A DNA stretch of 34,083 nt from a virus, in IMG/VR virus record IMGVR_UViG_3300045970_000063, positions 1-34,083 of that record. One strand, given 5' to 3'. The notes beneath the pieces were generated by a model that ran no database searches, was not told the origin of the DNA, and saw only the letters and a list, made by a program, of their open reading frames with translations. Position numbers and translations under genes: made by a program. Shown here piece by piece: positions 1 through 24,404 of the stretch (positions within the stretch are counted from its first letter, which is position 1; the number at the start of each line of letters is the position of its first letter).

Positions 1-1718
1 GAGGGGTTTCTGACTACCGGTGCTACAGCATTTTTGTTTGCCTTTGGTTCAGTTACTCCAGTATTAAAGGCTTTATTTCCAGGAGTTCTTGTAGGTTCAG
101 ACTTATGTCCACGGGAAGGATTGACATAACTACCTAAAGTAGACTGCTCAGCAGATTCCTGTTCCTTTGCGATTAACTTTTTAGCAGAGGGTACTAAGAT
201 ATCTCCAGTGTTTTTAACTGCGCCTGGAACCTTCTCAAATCTTGCGATATCGCCCTTAGCACCAGCAAAGTTTATGATGGAGTAGAAAAGAGTATCAATA
301 GCATTAAATTCTTTAGCTGTAGTAGGATTAAGTACCAATTCGCTACAGGCATCAATAATGGCTAAGGAATTAGCGGTTAATTCAGCCTGTGCTTTAGTAT
401 CAGAAGCTAGGGTTTCTTTTATAGCAGAGAATAGATCCTTAACATTCTTTCTGTCTGGAATCTGATCTAAGGTTTGGATATCATCAATTGGGTTTGTTAC
501 GGTATTGAAGTTACGAGATTCTAGAACTCTAAGAGCTTTTAAGAACTCAGGAGAATTCTTAGCGGCAGCTAGAGCCTGCTCTCCACCAAGATACAACCAA
601 CAAAGCTTTACAAGGTCGCTATTCTTCTCAATTTCGTGGTCACTCTGGGCCATCTTTGTGAGAAGGGTCTTTAAAACAGGGATGTGTTTGTGACCGGGTA
701 GAACCTCTAATGCAATTTGCTTCATTACGCCACCGGTGGCGATGATAGAACTCTGGAATAAGTTAAATTTCTTATTCTTGATTCCCTTAGAAGTAGCTGT
801 TTGAATCATGCCATTGAAGGTTAGAGCATACTCATCACCTGGTTTTGGCTGTTCTTTATAGACCAGAGACTCAATTTGGTTTAATCCCTTGGTTGAAATC
901 TGCTTTTGACCGCCTTGTAGACCCATTTGTCTAGCTTGGGCATTTTCGTGTCTACGCTTAGCCTTTTCTAAATCTTTCTCGCTCGCAGCTCGAGCTGCAG
1001 CATCGTCAGCAGGCTTGGACACTAAAGCTTTATGCAAAGCTATAATGTTATCTAAGGTTTCTTGATCTTCATTAACATCTAACTGTACAATGTTAGCTTC
1101 TTTGGTCTTACCTTCTTTTCTAAGCCTATCTACTTTAGACTTAGCGGAGTTTAGTTTCTTCTCTAACTCATCGTGTCTTTCTTCAAGTTCTTCTTTAGTG
1201 AAAGAGTTCTTGATAGTAGCGGAATCTAGGTAAAAATCACTCTGGCCTTCGTCCTCTTTTGCTCTAACTTCTTTTAAAGCATTGATAACAGAGCCATTGC
1301 CTAAAGTGGCATTGAGTTCTGCGATATTATCACGGATGCTTTCAAGGCGTCTGTGGATCTCTTTTTCAGTAAATGCAATGGTAGCGCCAGAAGCATCGCC
1401 TAGTGTGACAGCGGTATATCCACTCTGTCCACCTTTGATCTTGGTGGTAGGCTTTTTGCCAGAATCTTCAACAGTTCTGGTTTCCTTGTATTTTTCAAAC
1501 TCAGCTATATCTGCAGCAGGAGCGCCATAGGCTTTTAGAGATTCTAATTTAGTATCTAACTGCTTAACTGTCCAGCTAGTTGGAGCAATACCTTCTTCTT
1601 CTAATTCTGCAACAGTGTAGTCAGCCTGCTTAGAGGGTAGTTTTCTCTTAGCCTCTTCAAGAGGAAAAGATTTTTGCATTCCAGACATACCACTTAGCAT
1701 TTTTAGGCGGTTCAACAT
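1..1718 (-). CDS. Large hypothetical protein, C-terminus beyond window edge
   Basis: An open frame runs without a stop from an ATG at 1718 to the left edge, giving at least 572 residues, so the C-terminus is missing. The start is supported by GAGGAC about 6 bases upstream. I do not recognise the family. Residues about 174-204 are rich in Glu, Lys and Leu with coiled-coil character (EELEERHDELEKKL), and residues about 235-280 are again highly charged and Ala-rich. The rest looks soluble and mostly helical, with no signal peptide or membrane segment. It is the last visible gene of the minus-strand series, downstream of several small genes. Its size and position would fit a virion or internal head protein, but that is inference. 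Confidence in the coding call is high; function is unknown. Confidence 0.85.
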   Translation of the reverse strand, partial: MLNRLKMLSGMSGMQKSFPLEEAKRKLPSKQADYTVAELEEEGIAPTSWTVKQLDTKLESLKAYGAPAADIAEFEKYKETRTVEDSGKKPTTKIKGGQSGYTAVTLGDASGATIAFTEKEIHRRLESIRDNIAELNATLGNGSVINALKEVRAKEDEGQSDFYLDSATIKNSFTKEELEERHDELEKKLNSAKSKVDRLRKEGKTKEANIVQLDVNEDQETLDNIIALHKALVSKPADDAAARAASEKDLEKAKRRHENAQARQMGLQGGQKQISTKGLNQIESLVYKEQPKPGDEYALTFNGMIQTATSKGIKNKKFNLFQSSIIATGGVMKQIALEVLPGHKHIPVLKTLLTKMAQSDHEIEKNSDLVKLCWLYLGGEQALAAAKNSPEFLKALRVLESRNFNTVTNPIDDIQTLDQIPDRKNVKDLFSAIKETLASDTKAQAELTANSLAIIDACSELVLNPTTAKEFNAIDTLFYSIINFAGAKGDIARFEKVPGAVKNTGDILVPSAKKLIAKEQESAEQSTLGSYVNPSRGHKSEPTRTPGNKAFNTGVTEPKANKNAVAPVVRNP

Positions 1719-1758
1719 TTAAAGTCCTCAATTTCCAATTATATAAACTTAATTAGTG

Positions 1759-2097
1759 TTACAGGCCAGCTTTTCCCATTCCATCTAGCCACTTATGTGC
1801 TTCAGTTCTAGGATAGAAATTTAATACTGGGTTTTCGTTATCTACCTTATCGGCTTCTAACGTATAGGTACCGCAAACACTGCACTTCTTTTCTTTGGCT
1901 AGTCGGGTAATTACAATACCATAACCGTCCCGGATGATTTCTTCGAAATAAATTCCATTATCTTTAATGTCCGCTGGTTTGCAGCTGGACGGATATCCAG
2001 AATTTAGATCGCTGGTTGATTTGATAGCAAATAGCTCATAGTCTTTCTTATTACAGCTAGTGCAGGTATGAAATTTTTTGATAAACGTTACAGACAT
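1759..2097 (-). CDS. Small putative zinc-binding protein
   Basis: 112 residues. Two Cys pairs, C12-x2-C15 (CTSC) and C72-x2-C75 (CSVC), are spaced as in a zinc ribbon with a long insert between the knuckles. No catalytic motif is seen. The gene lies 5 bases after the preceding gene (2103-2555) in the same direction and about 40 bases before the large gene ending the series, so it is probably co-transcribed with both. Phage genomes carry many such small zinc proteins, often acting on host transcription or as structural adaptors, but nothing here tells which. Function unknown. Confidence 0.75.
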   Translation of the reverse strand: MSVTFIKKFHTCTSCNKKDYELFAIKSTSDLNSGYPSSCKPADIKDNGIYFEEIIRDGYGIVITRLAKEKKCSVCGTYTLEADKVDNENPVLNFYPRTEAHKWLDGMGKAGL

Positions 2098-2102
2098 ATT
2101 AG

Positions 2103-2555
2103 CTACTCTTGAATACTTACTAATGTTTTTCTTAATTCGTGGAACTCTTTAATTTCCATTTGTCGGAACAACCACCTAATATCAGAATTTGAAACTAGCG
2201 GTGGCCCAGTGAGTACAGATAAACTATTGTTTTTTCTATTCTGGAGTGAAAAGTACAGGTACGAAGATAGATATCGTACATATTTGTCACTTACTCTACC
2301 CTTTAGTTTGTTTGAGTTAAAAAACTCTATAGGTACTGCCAAGCTATTCCACAATTCTAACATTATGGTTTGCTTTTTAAATATAGGCTCTTCTATTACT
2401 ATAAAATCCCTTTCGCTGGCCATATAGATAGCTGAGCTTACGGGTAAGATATTATATAATACTAATGAATCTAGCGTAACAGAATTCGCCACAACGCAAA
2501 GCCTGCCGTTCTGGAGCTTGTAAACATCGCCGGTAGCAGGTATATTAGTTGTCAT
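2103..2555 (-). CDS. Hypothetical protein, 150 aa
   Basis: A 150-residue protein with start at 2555, separated by 4 bases from the stop of the gene before it; the Shine-Dalgarno match is weak, so it may be translated by coupling. The N-terminus (GDVYKLQNGRLCVV) has the look of a small beta-barrel, and the middle is a mixed hydrophobic and charged domain. No zinc knuckles, nucleotide-binding loop or membrane helix are visible. I do not recognise the family. Its position among small genes next to likely virion genes does not settle a role. Confidence 0.75.
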   Translation of the reverse strand: MTTNIPATGDVYKLQNGRLCVVANSVTLDSLVLYNILPVSSAIYMASERDFIVIEEPIFKKQTIMLELWNSLAVPIEFFNSNKLKGRVSDKYVRYLSSYLYFSLQNRKNNSLSVLTGPPLVSNSDIRWLFRQMEIKEFHELRKTLVSIQE

Positions 2556-2559
2556 AGAT

Positions 2560-2946
2560 TTAATTGAAATACTTTCTTTCGTATTGATCTAATGGCAACG
2601 CTAATGCAAACACGCTACGGCGTCCAACATGGCCGCAGTTAGTGCAGGAGTAGGAAATAATGGGCATAACTTTATCTAGGTGAGGCATGTACAAATCAGA
2701 GATTAGTTCGCCAACCACCTTGTTATTGCATTTATTACAGATAGCATCAACAGGTTTAGTACTAACAGTAGATTTTTTGGCTGGTTCTGGTTGTGTCTTA
2801 CTAACACAGGCTGCTTTCTTAGCTGCTTTCTTTATTGCTCTATTCGACTTGATTGGTGCTACGTCTTCTAGGTCTTCTATAGAATCAAAATCCAATATAT
2901 CACCTTCGTACATATTAGATCTTAGTTTCTTTGACGAGTTACCCAT
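2560..2946 (-). CDS. Putative zinc-ribbon protein with basic linker
   Basis: 128 residues. An acidic N-terminal part (about 13-30) is followed by a Lys/Ala-rich basic stretch (about 35-60), then a C-terminal zinc ribbon formed by C70-x2-C73 (CNKC) and C101-x2-C104 (CTNC). Start at 2946 has a good Shine-Dalgarno (AAGGA, 7 bases away) that lies across the end of the preceding gene. An acidic tail, basic linker and ribbon could suit a nucleic-acid or polymerase-binding factor, and T4-like phages do use small coactivators of this sort, but there is no sequence match I can vouch for. Function unknown. Confidence 0.78.
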   Translation of the reverse strand: MGNSSKKLRSNMYEGDILDFDSIEDLEDVAPIKSNRAIKKAAKKAACVSKTQPEPAKKSTVSTKPVDAICNKCNNKVVGELISDLYMPHLDKVMPIISYSCTNCGHVGRRSVFALALPLDQYERKYFN

Positions 2947-2949
2947 GTC

Positions 2950-3261
2950 TTAATCCTTAAAAAAGACAGAGTATCCTTTCCCATGGGCGTCAATAATAAC
3001 GTACTGGGAATTGATCTCTGTAATAGTGTCTACTATTAGTAGTGTTTCATTAACCGCTTTACCAGAGTTGCTATTAAATCGGTATGAAAAATAGAGATTG
3101 TCACTTCCGCAGTACAAAATATGGTCATAATCTGTCCCATCAAGCACAAAAATACCCTCATGTGCTTCTGCTAACTTCGAAAACTCTTTGAGAGATAGCG
3201 AAGTATTTACAGGTTCACCTGAGGGTCTTACAAACTTATTCGGGTTTAAATGGTGCGTCAC
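2950..3261 (-). CDS. Hypothetical protein, 103 aa, GTG start
   Basis: 103 residues beginning at a GTG codon at 3261; no ATG is available near the N-terminus. The start follows the stop of the preceding gene directly (TAAGTG), so translation is probably coupled to it, helped by a GGA a few bases upstream. The sequence is rich in beta-prone residues (ILYCGSDNLYFSYRF) without zinc or catalytic motifs. A perfect minus-strand TATAAATA lies about 63 bases upstream inside the preceding gene (3324-3331) and could be a late promoter. Function unknown. Confidence 0.72.
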   Translation of the reverse strand: MTHHLNPNKFVRPSGEPVNTSLSLKEFSKLAEAHEGIFVLDGTDYDHILYCGSDNLYFSYRFNSNSGKAVNETLLIVDTITEINSQYVIIDAHGKGYSVFFKD

Positions 3262-3744
3262 TTAGTCCGTCTGGTAGAGAACGTTAGGTACTAATCTTTG
3301 CGGTAACGGAGCCATTGGATTGTTATTTATACTCAGTCCAGGGAACTGAGTATTTTGTGGTGGCTGCGTAGAATACGCTGTTTCGAGATTGCCAACAACT
3401 GTTTCAGGAGCTACACCATATGCGCTAGAAACAAACGCATTAAAAAGCTCGCCCTGAAATTCTTCATACATGATATCTACCATTTTAAGTAGCATATACA
3501 TCCTAAAGTCACCGTCAGATACGGAATAATTGCCAACAACCTCTGCAAGATTAGTAAAAACCGTTTGCAAACGAAGTTTATTTTTAGATAAGTGCCAATT
3601 TATAGGACCTATTGAAGATAAATCCTGAATAGACTTAATAGTCGGATCAAAAGTAGATTCTAGAGTTCTATATAAATACATACGAATTCTAGTCTTAACA
3701 TCATTAAGAAACCGTTCCTGGGAAATAGTATCTTGAGATGCCAT
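3262..3744 (-). CDS. Hypothetical protein, 160 aa, possible virion component
   Basis: 160 residues. The first 110 residues look helical (RFLNDVKTRIRMYLYRTL); the last 40 are Pro/Asn/Gln-rich and probably extended. The start ATG lies one base after the stop of the gene before it (TAATATG), an arrangement typical of translational coupling; the same junction occurs at 6495. It follows the glycine/threonine-rich gene 3746-4402 and the two probably act together. No recognised family. A virion or assembly role is inference from the neighbour only. Confidence 0.75.
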   Translation of the reverse strand: MASQDTISQERFLNDVKTRIRMYLYRTLESTFDPTIKSIQDLSSIGPINWHLSKNKLRLQTVFTNLAEVVGNYSVSDGDFRMYMLLKMVDIMYEEFQGELFNAFVSSAYGVAPETVVGNLETAYSTQPPQNTQFPGLSINNNPMAPLPQRLVPNVLYQTD

Positions 3745-3745
3745 A

Positions 3746-4402
3746 TTATACTACCGTATAAATAACATAGAAGTAAGTAACAATAAAAGAGTCAGACACA
3801 AGAAAATTTGTTGTTGGGTGTGAAACTGCTCCAAGTCCTGTAGTAAAGCTTCTTGTCCCCAGTGTTCCAGGAGTTGTAGATAAGATATAAGTAGATCCTG
3901 GTACATTTAAAGTCCCACTAGCTAGAGAAAGAATTTCTGTACCCGGATCAATACCAGTAGTCGATGTTATAGCTTGACCTAATACTATAGAACCACCACT
4001 TGGGGCAGAAACTAAAGTCATAACATTAGTGGCAAATGAAGCTGTTCCACCAGTGCTCCAACTATAACCTGGGGCAGTAAAGTTTGGATTTACTTTGATA
4101 GAAATTACTGTGGTTGAAGTATCAGAAGGAACACTATTTGCAGACATATCCATAGGTAATGCTGGATCTAATGTAGATACAACAGTATAATAATATTTTG
4201 AAATAGCAGCACCGTCTGAAATACTGTTTGGAATACCTTGACCGTTGTAATAAATCATAATACTAGAAGTATCTTCTACTCTAGCATAACCTGCTGTTAT
4301 ACCGGGGTTGGTATAAGTTAGGGTTTTGCTTCCAGCAACAGCATCACCAGATAATATGGTTACTGGTAATACCTTAAGAAAAGAATTTTTAGCTAGTGCC
4401 AT
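3746..4402 (-). CDS. Beta-rich probable virion protein
   Basis: 218 residues, rich in Thr, Ser, Gly and Val, with almost no helix-forming segments. Around residues 135-175 it contains a run of the type IVLGQAITSTTGIDPGTEI followed by SGTLNVPGSTYILS, a glycine/threonine beta-repeat pattern I know from phage fibre and surface proteins. No signal peptide or membrane helix. Start ATG at 4402 has GGGAT upstream and lies 15 bases after the SWIM-type gene. Most likely a decoration, fibre-associated or other external virion protein. Family assignment is by pattern only. Confidence 0.7.
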   Translation of the reverse strand: MALAKNSFLKVLPVTILSGDAVAGSKTLTYTNPGITAGYARVEDTSSIMIYYNGQGIPNSISDGAAISKYYYTVVSTLDPALPMDMSANSVPSDTSTTVISIKVNPNFTAPGYSWSTGGTASFATNVMTLVSAPSGGSIVLGQAITSTTGIDPGTEILSLASGTLNVPGSTYILSTTPGTLGTRSFTTGLGAVSHPTTNFLVSDSFIVTYFYVIYTVV

Positions 4403-5634: not shown

Positions 5635-6495
5635 TTAAACAAACTTACTAGTAAACAGAGTAGAGTGGTCGTGTATGTAAGTCATTAGATCGGTTCGGGC
5701 CATCTGCGAAGACAAATCACCCAAGTCCATGTCCATTTCCTTACCCCAGTCTATAAAATAAACCTCTTTGTTTGGGAACCAGCTATCTAATTCTTTAGCT
5801 AATTTCTTAGTTTCTCGTTCTGTTCCCGGGTCTAAGCAAAGATAGATATTTTTTCTGTGACGAAGAGCCGCGAAAAGAGACATGTGTTGATCTTTAGTTA
5901 AAGTCTTACCAAGCAGTGCAATACCTCCTGGTAACTTAAACATATCAAAAATACCCTCGCCAATGTAAGCATTATCTAAGTAGAAATCATCTACTGGGGT
6001 TTTAGCTCTAAATACAAAATCCTTCTTAGAAACAGAGTTAAGATACTTTGGGTTGGTGTTAGGTAGAATAGTTCTTCCTGTATAGAAGACGGTATTACCA
6101 TCGTTATCATCTATAGTAAGAAAGACACGATCTTTATAATGGTCATTCTCAGATACCAAGATATCATAACAATCAATAATATCGTCATCCCATCCACGGG
6201 AAAGTAGATAGGAATAGTGTGGGTCTTCTGGTTCAATCTGACGGAAAGGTCTGAGTTGTTTCAGGAGTTCTGAGTTCTGCTTATACTGCCTAGCTTTGGT
6301 ATGAGCAAGCTTCTTAAATGTTTGTATAGATTCCCTATCTTCTACCTGAGAGTAGATTTCTGGGTAATCTCTTAACCTAGAAATAGGACCAGCAAAGCCA
6401 CAGTGAAAGCAGTTGAAGACCGATTTCTCGGTATTCACATACAGCTTGTGGTTGTGGTGCCTACATTTAGGACATTGAAAAAGTTGCTCATCCAT
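5635..6495 (-). CDS. DnaG/T4 gp61-type DNA primase
   Basis: Makes RNA primers for lagging-strand synthesis. The protein opens with a zinc ribbon, C8-x2-C11 and C29-x2-C32 (CPKC, CFHC), used by DnaG-type primases to read the template. A TOPRIM-like part follows: GEGIFD near residue 182 supplies the metal-binding Glu, and LCLDPGTE near residue 218 the Asp strand. At 286 residues it is compact, with no helicase part fused, so a separate helicase is expected outside this window. I chose the ATG at 6495 rather than the TTG at 6543, because the ATG is one base after the upstream stop (TAATATG) and the zinc ribbon starts right after it; the longer form adds 16 residues overlapping the upstream gene. 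Confidence 0.88.
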   Translation of the reverse strand: MDEQLFQCPKCRHHNHKLYVNTEKSVFNCFHCGFAGPISRLRDYPEIYSQVEDRESIQTFKKLAHTKARQYKQNSELLKQLRPFRQIEPEDPHYSYLLSRGWDDDIIDCYDILVSENDHYKDRVFLTIDDNDGNTVFYTGRTILPNTNPKYLNSVSKKDFVFRAKTPVDDFYLDNAYIGEGIFDMFKLPGGIALLGKTLTKDQHMSLFAALRHRKNIYLCLDPGTERETKKLAKELDSWFPNKEVYFIDWGKEMDMDLGDLSSQMARTDLMTYIHDHSTLFTSKFV

Positions 6496-6496
6496 A

Positions 6497-7066
6497 TTAT
6501 CGCTCGGTCTGTCCGAAAAGCTTTGCTCGACACTGCATAACAATCTTCAGATTTTGAAGATTTGCTGGTTGCTTATCTAGCAATTTAATAAACGCTTGCC
6601 AAAGAAAATCTAAGGTTTTGTTACCAAGCTGCATCTCTTCCCAAACATATAAGCCAAGATCCAAAAGATCAGCTAGTTTCATTAGGTTGAAATCATCTTC
6701 AGATGCTACTTCCATACAGAGATTCTGTAGATAAACATCATCTGGAAATAGTTTCCTGACCGCATCAGTCTCAATGGACTTTAGTTTCATACCAATACCA
6801 TTCTGCATTTTTACAGGGGTTGGTACATCACATTCTAATAGACTTTCTGGAAAGTCGTGAAATAGACCTAATGTTGATACATAGTTAGCTTTTGCATAAT
6901 CACCCTCATAGAACTCAAGGGCTAGAAAGAAGGACAACTGTGCTACTCGCGCACTGTGGTCTGCTAAAGTCTGTGTTTTAATAGTGTTACGGCCATGATA
7001 ACGCTTAACGGCACTCATGCCAAGAATTGCGTCAACTACGCCTGTGGATTCATTTTCATCCAGCAT
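6497..7066 (-). CDS. YfbR-like HD-domain 5'-deoxynucleotidase
   Basis: Predicted to remove phosphate from deoxynucleoside monophosphates. The HD-family metal ligands line up with E. coli YfbR: H37 in LADHSARV, H70-D71 with E74 in LFHDFPE, and D133 in LMKLADLLDLG. The adjacent CDVPTPVK matches the GDLPTPVK substrate loop of YfbR. Length (189 aa) is also that of YfbR. The start was moved to the ATG at 7066, since a near-perfect Shine-Dalgarno, GGAGGTGATCC, ends next to it; the ATG at 7087 would make this ribosome site part of the coding sequence (codons Met-Lys-Gly-Gly-Gly-Asp-Pro). It is coupled to the primase downstream. Likely role: tuning dNTP pools, or breaking down host nucleotides during infection. 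Confidence 0.85.
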   Translation of the reverse strand: MLDENESTGVVDAILGMSAVKRYHGRNTIKTQTLADHSARVAQLSFFLALEFYEGDYAKANYVSTLGLFHDFPESLLECDVPTPVKMQNGIGMKLKSIETDAVRKLFPDDVYLQNLCMEVASEDDFNLMKLADLLDLGLYVWEEMQLGNKTLDFLWQAFIKLLDKQPANLQNLKIVMQCRAKLFGQTER

Positions 7067-7102
7067 TGGATCACCTCCACCTTTCATATCGGTCAGGTCA
7101 GA

Positions 7103-7163
7103 TTAATTTGGAAAACATTTCGTAAGTCGGCCAAGACTTTCCACGACAAACTCACAAGTCTGG
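7103..7163 (-). pseudogene. Remnant of a second exonuclease 3' end
   Basis: Read on the minus strand from 7151, the frame encodes EFVVESLGRLTKCFPN and then TAA at 7105-7103. The true end of the flap exonuclease (8024-8083) reads EFVVENLSRLSKCFNN and then TAA. By my count 12 of 16 residues agree, with many differences at synonymous positions (34 of 51 bases agree). There is no start codon and one extra base upstream, so it cannot be expressed as part of an exonuclease. The 3' end of the homing endonuclease gene overlaps it: that gene takes its last codons, CCA GAC TTG TGA, from this remnant. This is best explained as the old exonuclease tail, displaced when the endonuclease cassette went in. 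Confidence 0.8.
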
Positions 7164-8018
7164 CAAAGCCAATACATAAGATTTTATGTTCTTTTCTTCT
7201 GAGGACGGTATAACTATTAGTTTGATACCATTATCAATACAGTACTGCTCTTTATCTCTATCCCGTTGTCTAGCTTTATTAAATATGTCTTCTGTCTTAT
7301 GCCAGTGATTTGGATAGATATAATGCTGATAACCGTGATACTCAAAGGCTACTTTGTGTTGTTCATTATAACCATCAAACTCATACCTCTTATTATTGTA
7401 AGCAAACCGGTGCTTTAGAAAGGTGATATTAAACCTATTTTCTAACTCAAGTTTACAATATAACTCAGTCTTAAATCGATAACACTCAGGACACCAAGTA
7501 TTCCCATCTTTTATACTATTCCATTTAACTTCCCAAACATGTTTATGTTTACACGACCAGCGAAGTGGTTTGTTATTATTTATGTATTTTTTAGATAACA
7601 GCTTGCCACCCAACCGATTTGCGTGTTCTCGTAAATCATTGATATCCGGTGTGGCATTATTAGAGCATTTTGGGCACCAATGACCAGCCTTAACTGAACT
7701 CCAACGTGCTGACCACTGATGATTATACTTACATTGCCACAGTAATTTACTGAAATTGTTTACATAGGTTGTAGATACTAACTTACCACCCAGGCTCAAA
7801 GCATGCTGTTGTAGTATTGCGATAGCTGGCTTCTTCCTATTTTGCTGACAAACTGGACACCAAGTGCCAGCTTTTATGCTGCCCCACATAGCTTTCCAAG
7901 TATGGCCCTCTTTACATTGCCAACTTAACCTATCTTTTGAAAAAATACGGTTAGAGGATAATAACCTTCCTCCACGGGAGATAGCTTCTTGTTGACAGAG
8001 CAAAATACTGAGGGACAT
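7152..8018 (-). CDS. Homing endonuclease: three zinc ribbons plus PD-(D/E)XK-like nuclease
   Basis: A free-standing DNA endonuclease of mobile type. Three tandem zinc ribbons share the pattern W-x-C-x2-x-H-x-W...G-x-W-C-P-x-C: C35/C54/C57, C96/C115/C118 and C156/C176/C179. These resemble the DUF4379-type probable zinc-ribbon repeat and likely read DNA. A nuclease domain follows with D215 (FDGYN), E226 (AFEYHG) and Q231-H232 (YQHY), as in Vsr/EDxHD-like homing enzymes, then a RDRDKEQYC helix and a LIVIP strand. Start ATG at 8018 lies 5 bases after the exonuclease stop; the GTG at 8039 would overlap it, and the related gene at 14369 starts at the equivalent place. It ends inside a displaced exonuclease tail. 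Confidence 0.85.
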   Translation of the reverse strand: MSLSILLCQQEAISRGGRLLSSNRIFSKDRLSWQCKEGHTWKAMWGSIKAGTWCPVCQQNRKKPAIAILQQHALSLGGKLVSTTYVNNFSKLLWQCKYNHQWSARWSSVKAGHWCPKCSNNATPDINDLREHANRLGGKLLSKKYINNNKPLRWSCKHKHVWEVKWNSIKDGNTWCPECYRFKTELYCKLELENRFNITFLKHRFAYNNKRYEFDGYNEQHKVAFEYHGYQHYIYPNHWHKTEDIFNKARQRDRDKEQYCIDNGIKLIVIPSSEEKNIKSYVLALPDL

Positions 8019-8023
8019 ATAAT

Positions 8024-9064
8024 TTAATTGTTGAAACACTTAGATAAGCGACTCAAGTTTTCCACCACAAACTCAAAATTTGGTCTGGATTTGAAGATTC
8101 CAGTATACTTGCTCACAATCTCTTGATAGGTAGGCTTATTCAGCGTGTTACTAGAGAGGAATTTCAAGGCTTGATTCTGCGTATAAGCAGAGGCATATAC
8201 AGAACTAAGGTCTATTAGCTTGTAGTTGCGTAAGATAAGATCGTGATTGTCTTTAATAAGATTGATGAACTTATCTGTGCTATTAATAGATGATACAGTA
8301 TTGATAAAACTGATTGGGTCTTTGTCATAAAGATCTAGGTATGTCTGGTCTGTGCTAAAGTAGGCTTCTTTTAGCTTGTGAAGGGTCTTGTAGCCTACAC
8401 GATTGATTCCAGGTATATTGTCGCCCTTATCCCCGACGAGAGCCTTATAGAACAAGTATTCAGATGGGTGAATCTTTACACCCTTCATATCTTCGAAATG
8501 ATCTGGGAAGTTCTTGTTCGTAACTATCATCTTTTTATAGGGAACATAACAGGAAATACTTGGGCTAGCTACCATCTGTAGAAAGTCAGTATCGTTGCTG
8601 AGGATGACAGAATGCTTGCCTAAACTATTAAGCTGCTCGGCCATCAATCCGATTATGTCATCAGCCTCAATGCCCGTTTCCATATACACAGGCAGGTTAA
8701 AAGCCCTGCACAGCTCAACCACGGAGTCTCTAAGCTTGCCATACACAGAGAATAAATAATCTTTTGTGTCCAATTGTGCGCCAGCAATAGGTGCTAACTC
8801 TCTGTTGCCCTTGTAATCAGCGAACAAAGCCTGTTTCCGGTGTGATCCACCAATGTCAAAAATAATATAAAGGCTGGAGCAATTGAAGTTCTTTGCCTGA
8901 AGCCCTAACTGGTGTACAAACATATCTGATACAGATGAGATTAACTCGGATTCTGTCAGTAAGTTACTACCAGCTTGTCTGGCATAGAGTAAACGAACTA
9001 AAAGGTTACTACCATCCACCAAAAGTGCTGGATTTGAATCCAGAAAGATTAGATCTTTTACCAT
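8024..9064 (-). CDS. 5'-3' flap exonuclease (T4 RNase H / FEN family)
   Basis: Removes RNA primers and 5' flaps during lagging-strand repair. All metal-site motifs of the FEN family are present in order: D17 (LLVDGSN), FDIGGSHRKQ (69-78) with ADYKGNR, EADD (133-136), LSNDTDF (155-161) and GDKGDNIPG (211-219), the last beginning the helix-turn-helix that binds duplex DNA. Length 346 aa is typical for phage members. The ATG overlaps the stop of the gene before it by 7 bases, so the two are coupled. The last 19 codons are probably foreign: a second, diverged version of this tail lies downstream of the homing endonuclease at 7103-7163. Confidence 0.93.
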   Translation of the reverse strand: MVKDLIFLDSNPALLVDGSNLLVRLLYARQAGSNLLTESELISSVSDMFVHQLGLQAKNFNCSSLYIIFDIGGSHRKQALFADYKGNRELAPIAGAQLDTKDYLFSVYGKLRDSVVELCRAFNLPVYMETGIEADDIIGLMAEQLNSLGKHSVILSNDTDFLQMVASPSISCYVPYKKMIVTNKNFPDHFEDMKGVKIHPSEYLFYKALVGDKGDNIPGINRVGYKTLHKLKEAYFSTDQTYLDLYDKDPISFINTVSSINSTDKFINLIKDNHDLILRNYKLIDLSSVYASAYTQNQALKFLSSNTLNKPTYQEIVSKYTGIFKSRPNFEFVVENLSRLSKCFNN

Positions 9065-14368: not shown

Positions 14369-15072
14369 ATGAGATTGTTAAACATATCTATCCCACAGGA
14401 ACACGCTAAAAACCTTGGTGGTATTTTACTTAGTCTTATTTTTAAAAATAGTAGAACTAAATTACTCTGGCAGTGCGTGAAAGGACATACTTGGGAATCA
14501 ACCTGGGTCATATTCAACAGGGTAGTTGGTGCCCACAGTGCGCTGGTTATTTTACTACAGATATTTCCGTATTACGACAACATGCTATAAATAAAGGCGG
14601 TAAGTTAAAAAGTAAAGTTTATATAAATAATCGTAGTAAGGTTGAATGGGTGTGCTCGAAAAAACATACGTGGTTTGCTAAATGGGATGATGTCAACTGT
14701 AAAAATAGTTGGTGCCCAAAATGTAACATCTTCAAAACAGAAGAAAAGGTTAGATCTATTTTAGAATCAAAATTACAGTTGTCTTTTCCAAAACGCCGAT
14801 TTTACTATGATAAACATAAGTTTTATGAATTAGATGGTTATAATGAAGAAAATAAAATAGCTTTTGAATATAACGGAAAACAGCATTACTTGAGACATCC
14901 AAAATGGCATAAAACAGAACAAGCATTCGCTCTTCAACAAGTTAGAGATGCTAATAAAGTATTGTGGTGCGAGCAAAACAATATTACATTAATAGTTATA
15001 CCATATACGGCAGACAATAACTTAACTAAGTATATAGATAAGAAACTCAGTGAGATCCTATTATGCAAGTAA
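14369..15072 (+). pseudogene. Frameshifted homing endonuclease of the zinc-ribbon family
   Basis: Same family as the gene at 7152-8018. Frame one (from 14369) gives the N-terminus and the first half of a zinc ribbon (LLWQCVKGHTWESTW). The matching second half (HIQQGSWCPQC) is in another frame; one base is missing at 14507-14508 between the TGG and CAT codons. A second ribbon follows (VEWVCSKKHTW...SWCPKC), then an intact nuclease domain: ELDGYN, IAFEYNGKQHY, WHKT, RDANK and LIVIP. Two ribbons are present against three in the relative. The last codons overlap the start of the next gene by 10 bases. A sequencing error or programmed slip are possible, but no strong slippery site is visible. Confidence 0.8.
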
Positions 15073-17545: not shown

Positions 17546-17549
17546 TGTG

Positions 17550-18464
17550 ATGAGCAATTACAAATCTGGCGTATATCTAATAAAAAATAGTATTAATAGT
17601 AAGATTTATATAGGGTCTTCATGTAATTTAAATAAACGTTATAAAGAACATTTTAGAAAGCTATCGAAAAATAAACACGAAAATGCTATTTTGCAAGCTT
17701 CAGTACATAAATATGATATATCCAATTTTATTTTCATAGTGTTACTGTATTGTAATATAAAAGATTTATTATTTTATGAGCAGAGAGCCATAAATATGTA
17801 TAAACCAGATTATAATATATGCCTTATGGCAGGGAATAACCTAGGATATAAACACTCTCAACAAGCTAAAGATAAAATTAGGATTAAAGTGCTTGGCAGA
17901 AAGCATTCAGATGAGTCAAAGAAGAAAATGAAGTCAGTCCAAAGCCTTCGCCCAAGCCTAGGTATGTTAGGTAAAAATCATTCTGAAGAAACAAAAGAAA
18001 AAATACGCTCTGGTAATCTTGGAAAAACTCACAGCGAAGCTACAAAAGAAAAATTACGACTATCTCACCTAGGTAAAAAGTTACCAGAAGACCGCAAACT
18101 TCGCCATATTGCTGTTTTACATAGTCCAGAAAATAAAATTAAGAGGGCAGAAGCTCGTAAAAATAGATCTGAAGAAGAAAAACAATCTACGAGTTTGAAA
18201 CTATCGGTTGTTTATAAGAACTATTCAGACGATATTAAAGAGGTAAGAACTAAAAAGTTTATTGAGGCTACTCAAAAATATTTTAACTCTAATCCAGTTA
18301 ATACATATATTGTAACCTTTCCAGATAAAACTGAAGTGACTGTAAGTAATTTATCCCGGTTTGCTGTAGAACATGACTTAAGTTATAAAGCCTTACAACA
18401 CGCTATGACAAGAAATACAGAACACCGTGGATTTTTTGTAACCAGAGAGAAAATAAGAGATTAA
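17550..18464 (+). CDS. GIY-YIG homing endonuclease with NUMOD3 repeats
   Basis: A Seg-type mobile endonuclease. The catalytic domain has GVYLIKN and KIYIGSS near the N-terminus, the Arg of NLNKRYKEHF and the Glu of LLFYEQRAI. After residue 105 come four copies of a DNA-binding repeat of NUMOD3 type: GRKHSDESKKKM, GKNHSEETKEKI, GKTHSEATKEKL and GKKLPEDRK. The C-terminus (VSNLSRFAVEHDLSYKAL) looks like a NUMOD-type helix-turn-helix. The ATG at 17550 lies 4 bases after the terminase stop; a GTG directly before it is less likely. It ends one base before the portal start. Codons are more AT-rich than those of its neighbours, in keeping with a separate origin. I found no copied host-gene tail at its ends. 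Confidence 0.92.
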   Translation: MSNYKSGVYLIKNSINSKIYIGSSCNLNKRYKEHFRKLSKNKHENAILQASVHKYDISNFIFIVLLYCNIKDLLFYEQRAINMYKPDYNICLMAGNNLGYKHSQQAKDKIRIKVLGRKHSDESKKKMKSVQSLRPSLGMLGKNHSEETKEKIRSGNLGKTHSEATKEKLRLSHLGKKLPEDRKLRHIAVLHSPENKIKRAEARKNRSEEEKQSTSLKLSVVYKNYSDDIKEVRTKKFIEATQKYFNSNPVNTYIVTFPDKTEVTVSNLSRFAVEHDLSYKALQHAMTRNTEHRGFFVTREKIRD

Positions 18465-23337: not shown

Positions 23338-23367
23338 AATAGCCTAACAGTAACATGTTAGGCTATT
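23338..23367 (+). terminator. Hairpin after the scaffold gene
   Basis: AATAGCCTAACA (23338-23349) pairs over 12 bases with TGTTAGGCTATT (23356-23367) around GTAACA. On the plus strand AGTTCTTT follows, a modest T-run. The right arm is also the last three codons and stop of the minus-strand endonuclease, so it may end transcripts from both sides. Confidence 0.6.
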
Positions 23368-24404
23368 AGTTCTTTAAGGATAAAATATCTTTTACCTACT
23401 TGAACATACTGTATTTCTTTTTTCTTAATTTTGTTTAAGAGAACTGCCGCAGCTTTTGCTTGATTGATGTCTTGTTTCTTTGAGTAGACTTTAGAAGCTT
23501 CCGTTAAAGCAAAGTAACAATCTTTATTAGATTGATAAAATTCTGACGGCCTTATATCAACAAGTGTTTGTACATCGGCAATTGTTAGTAACCTGTAATG
23601 GTATTCCGCATAATCTAAAACTCTAAACCGCTTGTTTCTCATTTCTAGTATTTCGTTGAAATATTCTTCAAACTCTTTAGCATACTTTTTAATGTTTGCT
23701 ACTAAGGGTCTATGAGCGTTGTTTCTAATGCTTTCCTTGAACTTTATAGTGCTTAGCATTTGTTTTTCATATACTTTTCTATATCGTTCAATATGCTCTT
23801 TCTTTTTCTCATAGTATAGATACCGCTCTAAGTCATAACACTCTTGTGTCTCTACGTATGGTATATGGGTCCAAGCTTTACCATTAGCAATAGCCGGTGG
23901 TAAACTTTCAGATATGCCAAAATATCTAGCTATATCTCCATACTCTACACCACACTTTATACAATACCTTACTAAGTTAATATCTTCTTCCTTTAACATA
24001 GCTCTACCATGCTTAGATCCGCTATTAACTCCTATCATTATCTTAGACATGTGTTCTTTTCGTTCTTTAGTTTGTGACCAAGAGTTCCCACCATCTCGCA
24101 TATTATACAAAGTACCGGCAATAGAAAATCCCCAACTAATAAAATATGATATCCAAAACTCCTCTGCCGCGTTAAGTAAAGTTTTATCATTAGGTATAAA
24201 TTCAAGTATTTCATATTTTAAGTTAGCTTTGTCTTTAAGTGCATTATAGGCGTGTTGAAGATACTTATTGTAGTGTCTATTTTTTGACAATTCTAGTCTA
24301 TGTGTGGCAAATCTTGTTTGCATTCTAACGCTTTGCCCAATATAAGCTTTATGGGTTTCTTCGTTAATTAAAATGTATATTCCAGATTTCATAATTAAAT
24401 TCAT
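23358..24404 (-). CDS. GIY-YIG homing endonuclease, inverted in the head operon
   Basis: 348 residues from 24404, or 344 from a second ATG at 24392 that begins directly with the GIY domain. GIYILINE and KAYIGQSV form the GIY-YIG core; the Arg of MQTRFATHR and Glu of NAAEEFWISYF complete the active site. A middle part (SWSQTKERKEHMSKIMIG...GSKHGRAMLKEEDI) is NUMOD-like, with a helix-turn-helix at EYGDIARYFGISES. The C-terminal 100 residues, including TIADVQTLVDIRPSEFYQS, look like further DNA-binding helices. It is the only gene on the minus strand between the sigma factor and the right edge. Its transcript would come from within the capsid leader, so its expression is separate from the late genes. 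Confidence 0.88.
   Translation of the reverse strand: MNLIMKSGIYILINEETHKAYIGQSVRMQTRFATHRLELSKNRHYNKYLQHAYNALKDKANLKYEILEFIPNDKTLLNAAEEFWISYFISWGFSIAGTLYNMRDGGNSWSQTKERKEHMSKIMIGVNSGSKHGRAMLKEEDINLVRYCIKCGVEYGDIARYFGISESLPPAIANGKAWTHIPYVETQECYDLERYLYYEKKKEHIERYRKVYEKQMLSTIKFKESIRNNAHRPLVANIKKYAKEFEEYFNEILEMRNKRFRVLDYAEYHYRLLTIADVQTLVDIRPSEFYQSNKDCYFALTEASKVYSKKQDINQAKAAAVLLNKIKKKEIQYVQVGKRYFILKELIA

Follow-up and report, generated by a model that had tools for sequence, protein, structure and literature searches.

How can a free-standing homing endonuclease gene enter the coding sequence of an essential phage gene and leave that gene whole? This question is raised by a metagenome-derived virus record of 34,083 bases in IMG/VR, analysed here over its full length and referred to as the window. 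The phage is of the myovirus type, with genes for UvsX, a gp32-like protein, terminase, portal, major head and tail sheath. On its minus strand, a gene for a 376-residue protein is followed by the genes for an exonuclease, an endonuclease, a YfbR-like nucleotidase and a DnaG-type primase, and the last codons of the exonuclease gene are found twice, once on either side of the endonuclease gene (Table 1).

Table 1 Features of the window locus and of the second locus, L136
Feature	Position	Strand	Evidence or remark
5'-3' exonuclease / flap endonuclease gene, 346 aa, complete	8024-9064	-	Pfam 5_3_exonuc_N 3.7e-21; PHROG 107 exonuclease 1.5e-30
Copy 1 of the tail, read in frame as the end of the exonuclease	8024-8074	-	Low mean identity to relatives
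Hef-like endonuclease (predicted), 288 aa	7152-8018	-	Zinc-ribbon repeats (three, DUF4379/CapR-type), then a Vsr/EDxHD-like nuclease at the C terminus
Copy 2, probably the exonuclease gene's native tail, now stranded and not translated as such	7103-7153	-	Match to copy 1
Nucleotidase leader	7067-7102	-	CCGATATG at 7092-7085; RBS-like GGAGGTGAT at 7078-7070
YfbR-like 5'-nucleotidase	6497-7066	-	Pfam 1.6e-15; synteny in L003, L008 and L034
DnaG-type primase	5635-6498	-	Junction with the nucleotidase holds a related endonuclease in L008
L136 UvrD helicase	583-2547		Pfam 1.1e-75
L136 endonuclease of the same family, following the helicase	2507-3787

The exonuclease gene ends in copy 1, which reads EFVVENLSRLSKCFNN and a stop, and downstream of the endonuclease gene another frame, copy 2, reads EFVVESLGRLTKCFPN and a stop. 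Each copy comprises 16 codons plus the stop, and the two are identical in 34 of 51 bases and 12 of 16 residues, the same counts as in the preliminary description of this DNA. That description had placed copy 2 at 7151-7103; the arrangement stands, with a small shift of the copy to 7153-7103. The placement of the endonuclease between two diverged exonuclease tails also holds, as the BLOSUM62 score between the copies was 63, above every one of 200 shuffles (maximum 39), and the best downstream match to a gene's own tail among about 60 FEN loci was 36. As first described, the stop codon of the endonuclease (TGA, 7154-7152) is built from copy 2 in a shifted frame, its G and A being the first two bases of a GAG codon of copy 2.

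The differences between the copies are of the kind expected in coding sequence: seven codons are identical, six differ synonymously and four differ nonsynonymously. When 17 random substitutions were simulated on copy 1, at least 12 of the 16 residues were kept with P = 5e-5. This result agrees with the earlier proposal that both copies evolved as coding sequence, and it argues that they diverged in different genomes rather than in place. A local duplication of the exonuclease 3' end, followed by insertion of the endonuclease gene and by drift between the copies, would be expected to leave two copies of one sequence in tandem. However, copy 2 would then have drifted untranslated, and yet its differences from copy 1 keep amino acids, as do those in the second locus described below; moreover, the copies are about as distant from each other as from the genes of other phages, and we consider such a duplication highly improbable. 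An assembly chimera of two metagenome strains is conceivable in a record of this origin, but the stretches in which the copies match exactly are short (about 8 bases at GAGTTTGT), not enough to make an assembler connect them. The junction also runs from endonuclease to tail rather than from tail to tail, the gene order is normal on both sides and a second instance occurs in a separate record, so that a chimera is scarcely credible.

The inserted gene appears from its sequence to encode a Hef-like free-standing homing endonuclease with DUF4379 zinc ribbons. It matched Pfam DUF4379 (2.2e-10) and CapR (1.4e-5) and no other Pfam family, and tblastn aligned it to annotated Hef-like proteins of Campylobacter phages at 26-29% identity (E down to 7e-12). 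The best PHROG match, PHROG 559 (E 7.9e-46), is labelled HNH endonuclease. To judge from an AlphaFold2 model (mean pLDDT 82, pTM 0.42), this label is probably wrong for the window enzyme: residues 180-288 aligned to the catalytic domain of I-Bth0305I with Z 7.6 and to Vsr with Z 7.5, against an advised safe value of 8 and 5.1 for the next row. These matches came from a second aligner; Foldseek alone gave no significant match to the model, and a profile of the endonuclease gave no significant match to any solved chain among the PDB sequences. Four residues (E185, D215, E226 and H228) do not vary among eight members of the family and are candidates for the acidic and histidine residues of the active site. 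The enzyme is thus likely, on the basis of its modelled fold, to be a Vsr/EDxHD-like homing nuclease. The G+C content of its gene (0.373) is little different from that of its neighbours.

The endonuclease gene does not appear to be carried by an intron or an intein. We rejected a group I intron since the window has no Rfam match at gathering thresholds and the stop codon of the host gene precedes the endonuclease start; an intein was rejected as the endonuclease is an open reading frame of its own, with its own start, behind that stop codon. Consistent with the preliminary description, the host gene stays whole, with a complete frame of 346 codons.

Three further members of homing endonuclease groups, or genes resembling them, were seen elsewhere in the window. 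Another same-family endonuclease gene, at 14369-15072, is interrupted by a frameshift near 14507 and lies between a gene for a 337-residue protein with a weak match to sigma-70 region 2 and a gene for a 166-residue protein that precedes the terminase large subunit. A GIY-YIG/NUMOD3 homing-endonuclease-like gene (17547-18464, plus strand) lies between the terminase large subunit and portal genes with one-base gaps on both sides, and a GIY-YIG endonuclease-like gene (23358-24404, minus strand) lies between head genes on the opposite strand.

To place the locus among its relatives, we compared it with IMG/VR records whose exonucleases are 81-85% identical to that of the window (L001, 82%; L003, L004 and L005, 81%; L008, 85%) or about 44% identical (L034 and L035). 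The exonuclease/nucleotidase junction is readable in three lineages (L003 with L004 and L005; L008; L034 with L035) and holds no endonuclease in any of them, and in all relatives with a readable junction the next gene is the YfbR-like nucleotidase, which in L003, L008 and L034 directly follows the exonuclease. The L001 contig ends shortly past the exonuclease stop; up to that point it has no endonuclease, and the leader motif is already present. Thus, the endonuclease is present in the window and absent at the same site in related genomes. None of L001, L003-L005, L008 and L034/L035 has a second exonuclease tail. A search of bacterial genomes found no relatives of the exonuclease or the endonuclease.

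The sequence between copy 2 and the nucleotidase gene, whose start is best placed at 7066 behind GGAGGTGAT, appears to be the native leader of that gene, as its motif also follows the exonuclease stop in L001, L003, L008 and L034. In the window, this motif (CGATAT or a variant, positionally conserved in the relatives) follows copy 2, not copy 1. The tails themselves could be compared with L001, L003 and L008 over 14 alignable codons (42 bases). Copy 2 matched these relatives at 30, 32 and 29 of 42 bases, respectively, and copy 1 at 26, 28 and 26; at third positions, the matches were 7, 8 and 8 for copy 2 and 3, 5 and 3 for copy 1. Informative sites divided 9 to 3 in favour of copy 2 (n = 12, one-sided P = 0.07). 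The mean identity of copy 2 to the relatives (0.72) is ordinary for the gene, in which stretches of the length of copy 1 have a median identity of 0.74, whereas that of copy 1 (0.635) is low. Matches in the flank behind copy 2 gave P = 0.03-0.06 for L001 and L003, and there were none for L008. Within the window exonuclease, codons 301-344 (the last 44) rank sixth lowest of 301 such stretches in identity to relatives, which is consistent with a short imported tract. Because copy 2 is nearer to the relatives and stands in the ancestral leader context, we regard it as probably the native tail, pushed aside by the insertion, and copy 1 as a probable import that came in together with the endonuclease; each piece of this evidence is modest, and all of them agree.

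These comparisons support the reading first put forward, in which the endonuclease and a tail came from a related phage and the old tail was left behind. The check proposed with that reading was a comparison with endonuclease-free relatives, and in L001, L003 and L008 the exonuclease ends nearer to copy 2, and in L003, L008 and L034 the nucleotidase follows it directly. We also looked for two contrary outcomes, both tails in an endonuclease-free relative, or a tail like copy 1 together with unrelated sequence at 7103-7163, and saw neither. No phage turned up that carries copy 1 with the window endonuclease immediately behind it and so could have been the donor. The polarity could be the reverse, with copy 1 native and the endonuclease brought in with copy 2, perhaps together with the leader and the nucleotidase gene, from a phage in which the tail had already been displaced. 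In protein sequence, the body of the exonuclease remains closest to that of L008 until the tail begins (identity 0.80 over codons 301-330), so that an import, if there was one, shows no sharp boundary on its left. However, it is copy 1 rather than copy 2 that is the outlier; copy 1 has a Ser at a position where each of the three close relatives has Gly; the leader of the relatives follows copy 2; and the reverse order requires that the donor had already undergone such an event. We therefore regard it as unlikely.

Our preferred explanation, which we hold with considerable confidence, is that the predicted Hef-like homing endonuclease gene entered the 3' end of the flap-exonuclease gene by one-sided repair, importing copy 1 and stranding copy 2. 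The junction suggests that the break in the recipient exonuclease gene fell at the Phe-Glu codons, some 16 codons short of the stop. Pairing of the broken left end with the exonuclease gene of a related phage, just behind which lay the endonuclease gene, would have let repair copy the last codons of the donor (copy 1) and the endonuclease gene. With no homology past the endonuclease gene, the copied end would have been joined to the other broken end of the recipient, at the junction that we observe, leaving the recipient's own tail (copy 2) and the leader downstream and out of frame. The outcome would be a whole host gene, an endonuclease that borrows its stop codon from the junction and a target sequence split in two. 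Co-conversion of flanking sequence is established for phage homing endonucleases (PMC2988022). In the preliminary description, the endonuclease itself cut the gene, near the Pro-Asn-Phe codons; the predicted enzyme may be active and may have made the break.

To find out whether the arrangement recurs, we used the alignment of the endonuclease family in a scan, which gave 31 loci, and tested systematically for tails of the upstream gene behind the endonuclease. One further displaced tail emerged, in L136 (IMGVR_UViG_3300009702_001278), where the upstream gene encodes a UvrD helicase. Past the endonuclease, the sequence reads AQDYLSINYCMTRRKYHFGTKRNRIDICEPSPFLKEIL... and repeats the end of the helicase in diverged form, with a score of 134 over 40 residues. 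The two tails are identical at 22 of 35 residues in the compared stretch, their differences are of the coding type and 0 of 20,000 simulations were as conserved. As in the window, the endonuclease stop lies at the junction and is read in a shifted frame. The displaced copy extends into the start codon of the gene that follows and on that ground appears to be in its native context. The G+C content of the endonuclease gene is 0.375, against 0.444 in its neighbours. We take the break to lie in helicase motif VI (VAMTRA). For helicase relatives that might settle the polarity, IMG/VR gave only the record itself, and matches in phages reached at most about 37%.

The second locus also bears on why a second tail would persist. 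In the window, the reading frame and stop codon of copy 2 are still intact, as they might be if the tail served some purpose, such as providing a homology arm for later homing or forming part of the nucleotidase leader. However, a recent insertion accounts for this intactness equally well, and in L136 the retained stretch holds the start codon of the next gene, a simple reason for its retention there; we think it very unlikely that the tail was kept for such a function.

Displaced tails were otherwise absent: IMG/VR yielded none behind other family members besides these two, and none was found behind an endonuclease in the whole genome of Campylobacter phage NCTC12673 or in 12 regions of other phages. 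The remaining high tail scores in NCTC12673 and these regions traced to zinc-ribbon repeats, antisense frames, low-complexity stretches or paralogues. The mirrored arrangement, in which the endonuclease would be preceded by a copy of the 5' head of the gene that follows it, did not occur in the family loci. As most family members lie at gene ends without a displaced tail, insertion of this kind is not the obligatory mode of the family. The outcome appears, from the sequences of the two loci, to have arisen independently in the L136 helicase gene and so to recur without being general. More tentatively, one-sided homing may be a recurrent route by which phage endonucleases reach the 3' ends of essential genes with neither an intron nor an intein. 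This family would have taken it in at least two unrelated genes, and later decay or loss of the stranded tail would often conceal it; we would rather doubt this broader claim than assert it.

Other members of the family provided further observations. In L008, an endonuclease of the same family (5668-6543) occupies the nucleotidase/primase junction, one gene further on than in the window, so that the family seems to invade neighbouring junctions of one operon. The L008 nucleotidase is unusually diverged (0.54-0.56, versus 0.70 between the window and L003), and this gene together with its endonuclease is possibly, as a weak suggestion, a whole-gene version of the same co-import. The near-identical genomes L006 and L007 differ in the last codons of the gene just upstream of the same endonuclease (2465-2995 in both; TEFETEHLNIKNQLKESSIDNLLSEE versus LDFETEHLNTKNTLKESSITDLLSEE), perhaps because of a co-conversion tract. 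The methyltransferase-like gene upstream is longer in L007 by a segment that is probably an intein. In L015, L016 and L017, on the one hand, and L020 (endonuclease from 3004), on the other, the same gene at the same site encodes 349 versus 410 residues. This difference apparently lies in how many zinc-ribbon repeats are present, and recombination between repeats would be expected to produce such variation.

Among known systems, the window enzyme shares sequence similarity and insertion between genes of a T4-like phage with Hef of phage U5, reported to cleave nrdB (PMC2988022), and with the Hef-like proteins of Campylobacter phage NCTC12673 and its relatives; unlike the window, the NCTC12673 insertions have no displaced tails. 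With the EDxHD homing endonuclease I-Bth0305I and with Vsr it may share a fold, to judge from the model, whereas its DNA-binding part, made of zinc ribbons, differs. In the transposition-like insertions of mobE in Aeh1 nrdA and of mobA in T4 gene 60, the host gene is split into two polypeptides (PMC2988022). These are free-standing homing endonucleases within the limits of an essential phage gene, as in the window, but the window gene is whole, a second tail having been supplied.

If our reading is right, the locus is a physical record of a free-standing homing endonuclease moving to a new essential-gene site, with the stranded tail marking the break point and the imported tail the donor. It is also a warning that a phage replication gene can carry a 3' end of foreign origin, and it suggests a genome-wide search for gene tails repeated just behind endonuclease genes. 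We found no phage precedent for the displaced-tail architecture in the literature searched, most subscription journals lying outside that search.

The closest parallels are gene hybrids made by mobile open reading frames in fungal mitochondria, to which the locus links intronless homing in phages. In Allomyces macrogynus atp6 and in Glomus sp. atp6, atp9, cox2 and nad3, a mobile endonuclease open reading frame introduced a foreign C terminus and displaced the native one (PMC3630166). The hybrids and the window alike have an endonuclease open reading frame between two C-terminal coding copies, of which the diverged upstream one completes the gene, and endonuclease-free alleles exist in both. 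In the hybrids, and probably in the window, to judge from the site comparison and the leader context, the native copy is the stranded one downstream, which most resembles that of relatives. By contrast, the fungal enzymes described there are of the LAGLIDADG or GIY-YIG type, some of them fused in phase, and expression of the hybrids was tested, whereas the window has a Vsr/EDxHD-like enzyme in a separate open reading frame of phage DNA and is known from sequence alone. The earlier claim that an essential gene was invaded without an intron or intein stands as to the absence of both, but the route is not new to biology. The window locus appears to work like the fungal hybrids without being a member of that class, as its enzyme is neither LAGLIDADG nor GIY-YIG; already known from fungal mitochondria, the displaced-tail architecture seems, from the literature searched, to be new in phages, where our analysis places it in two unrelated genes.
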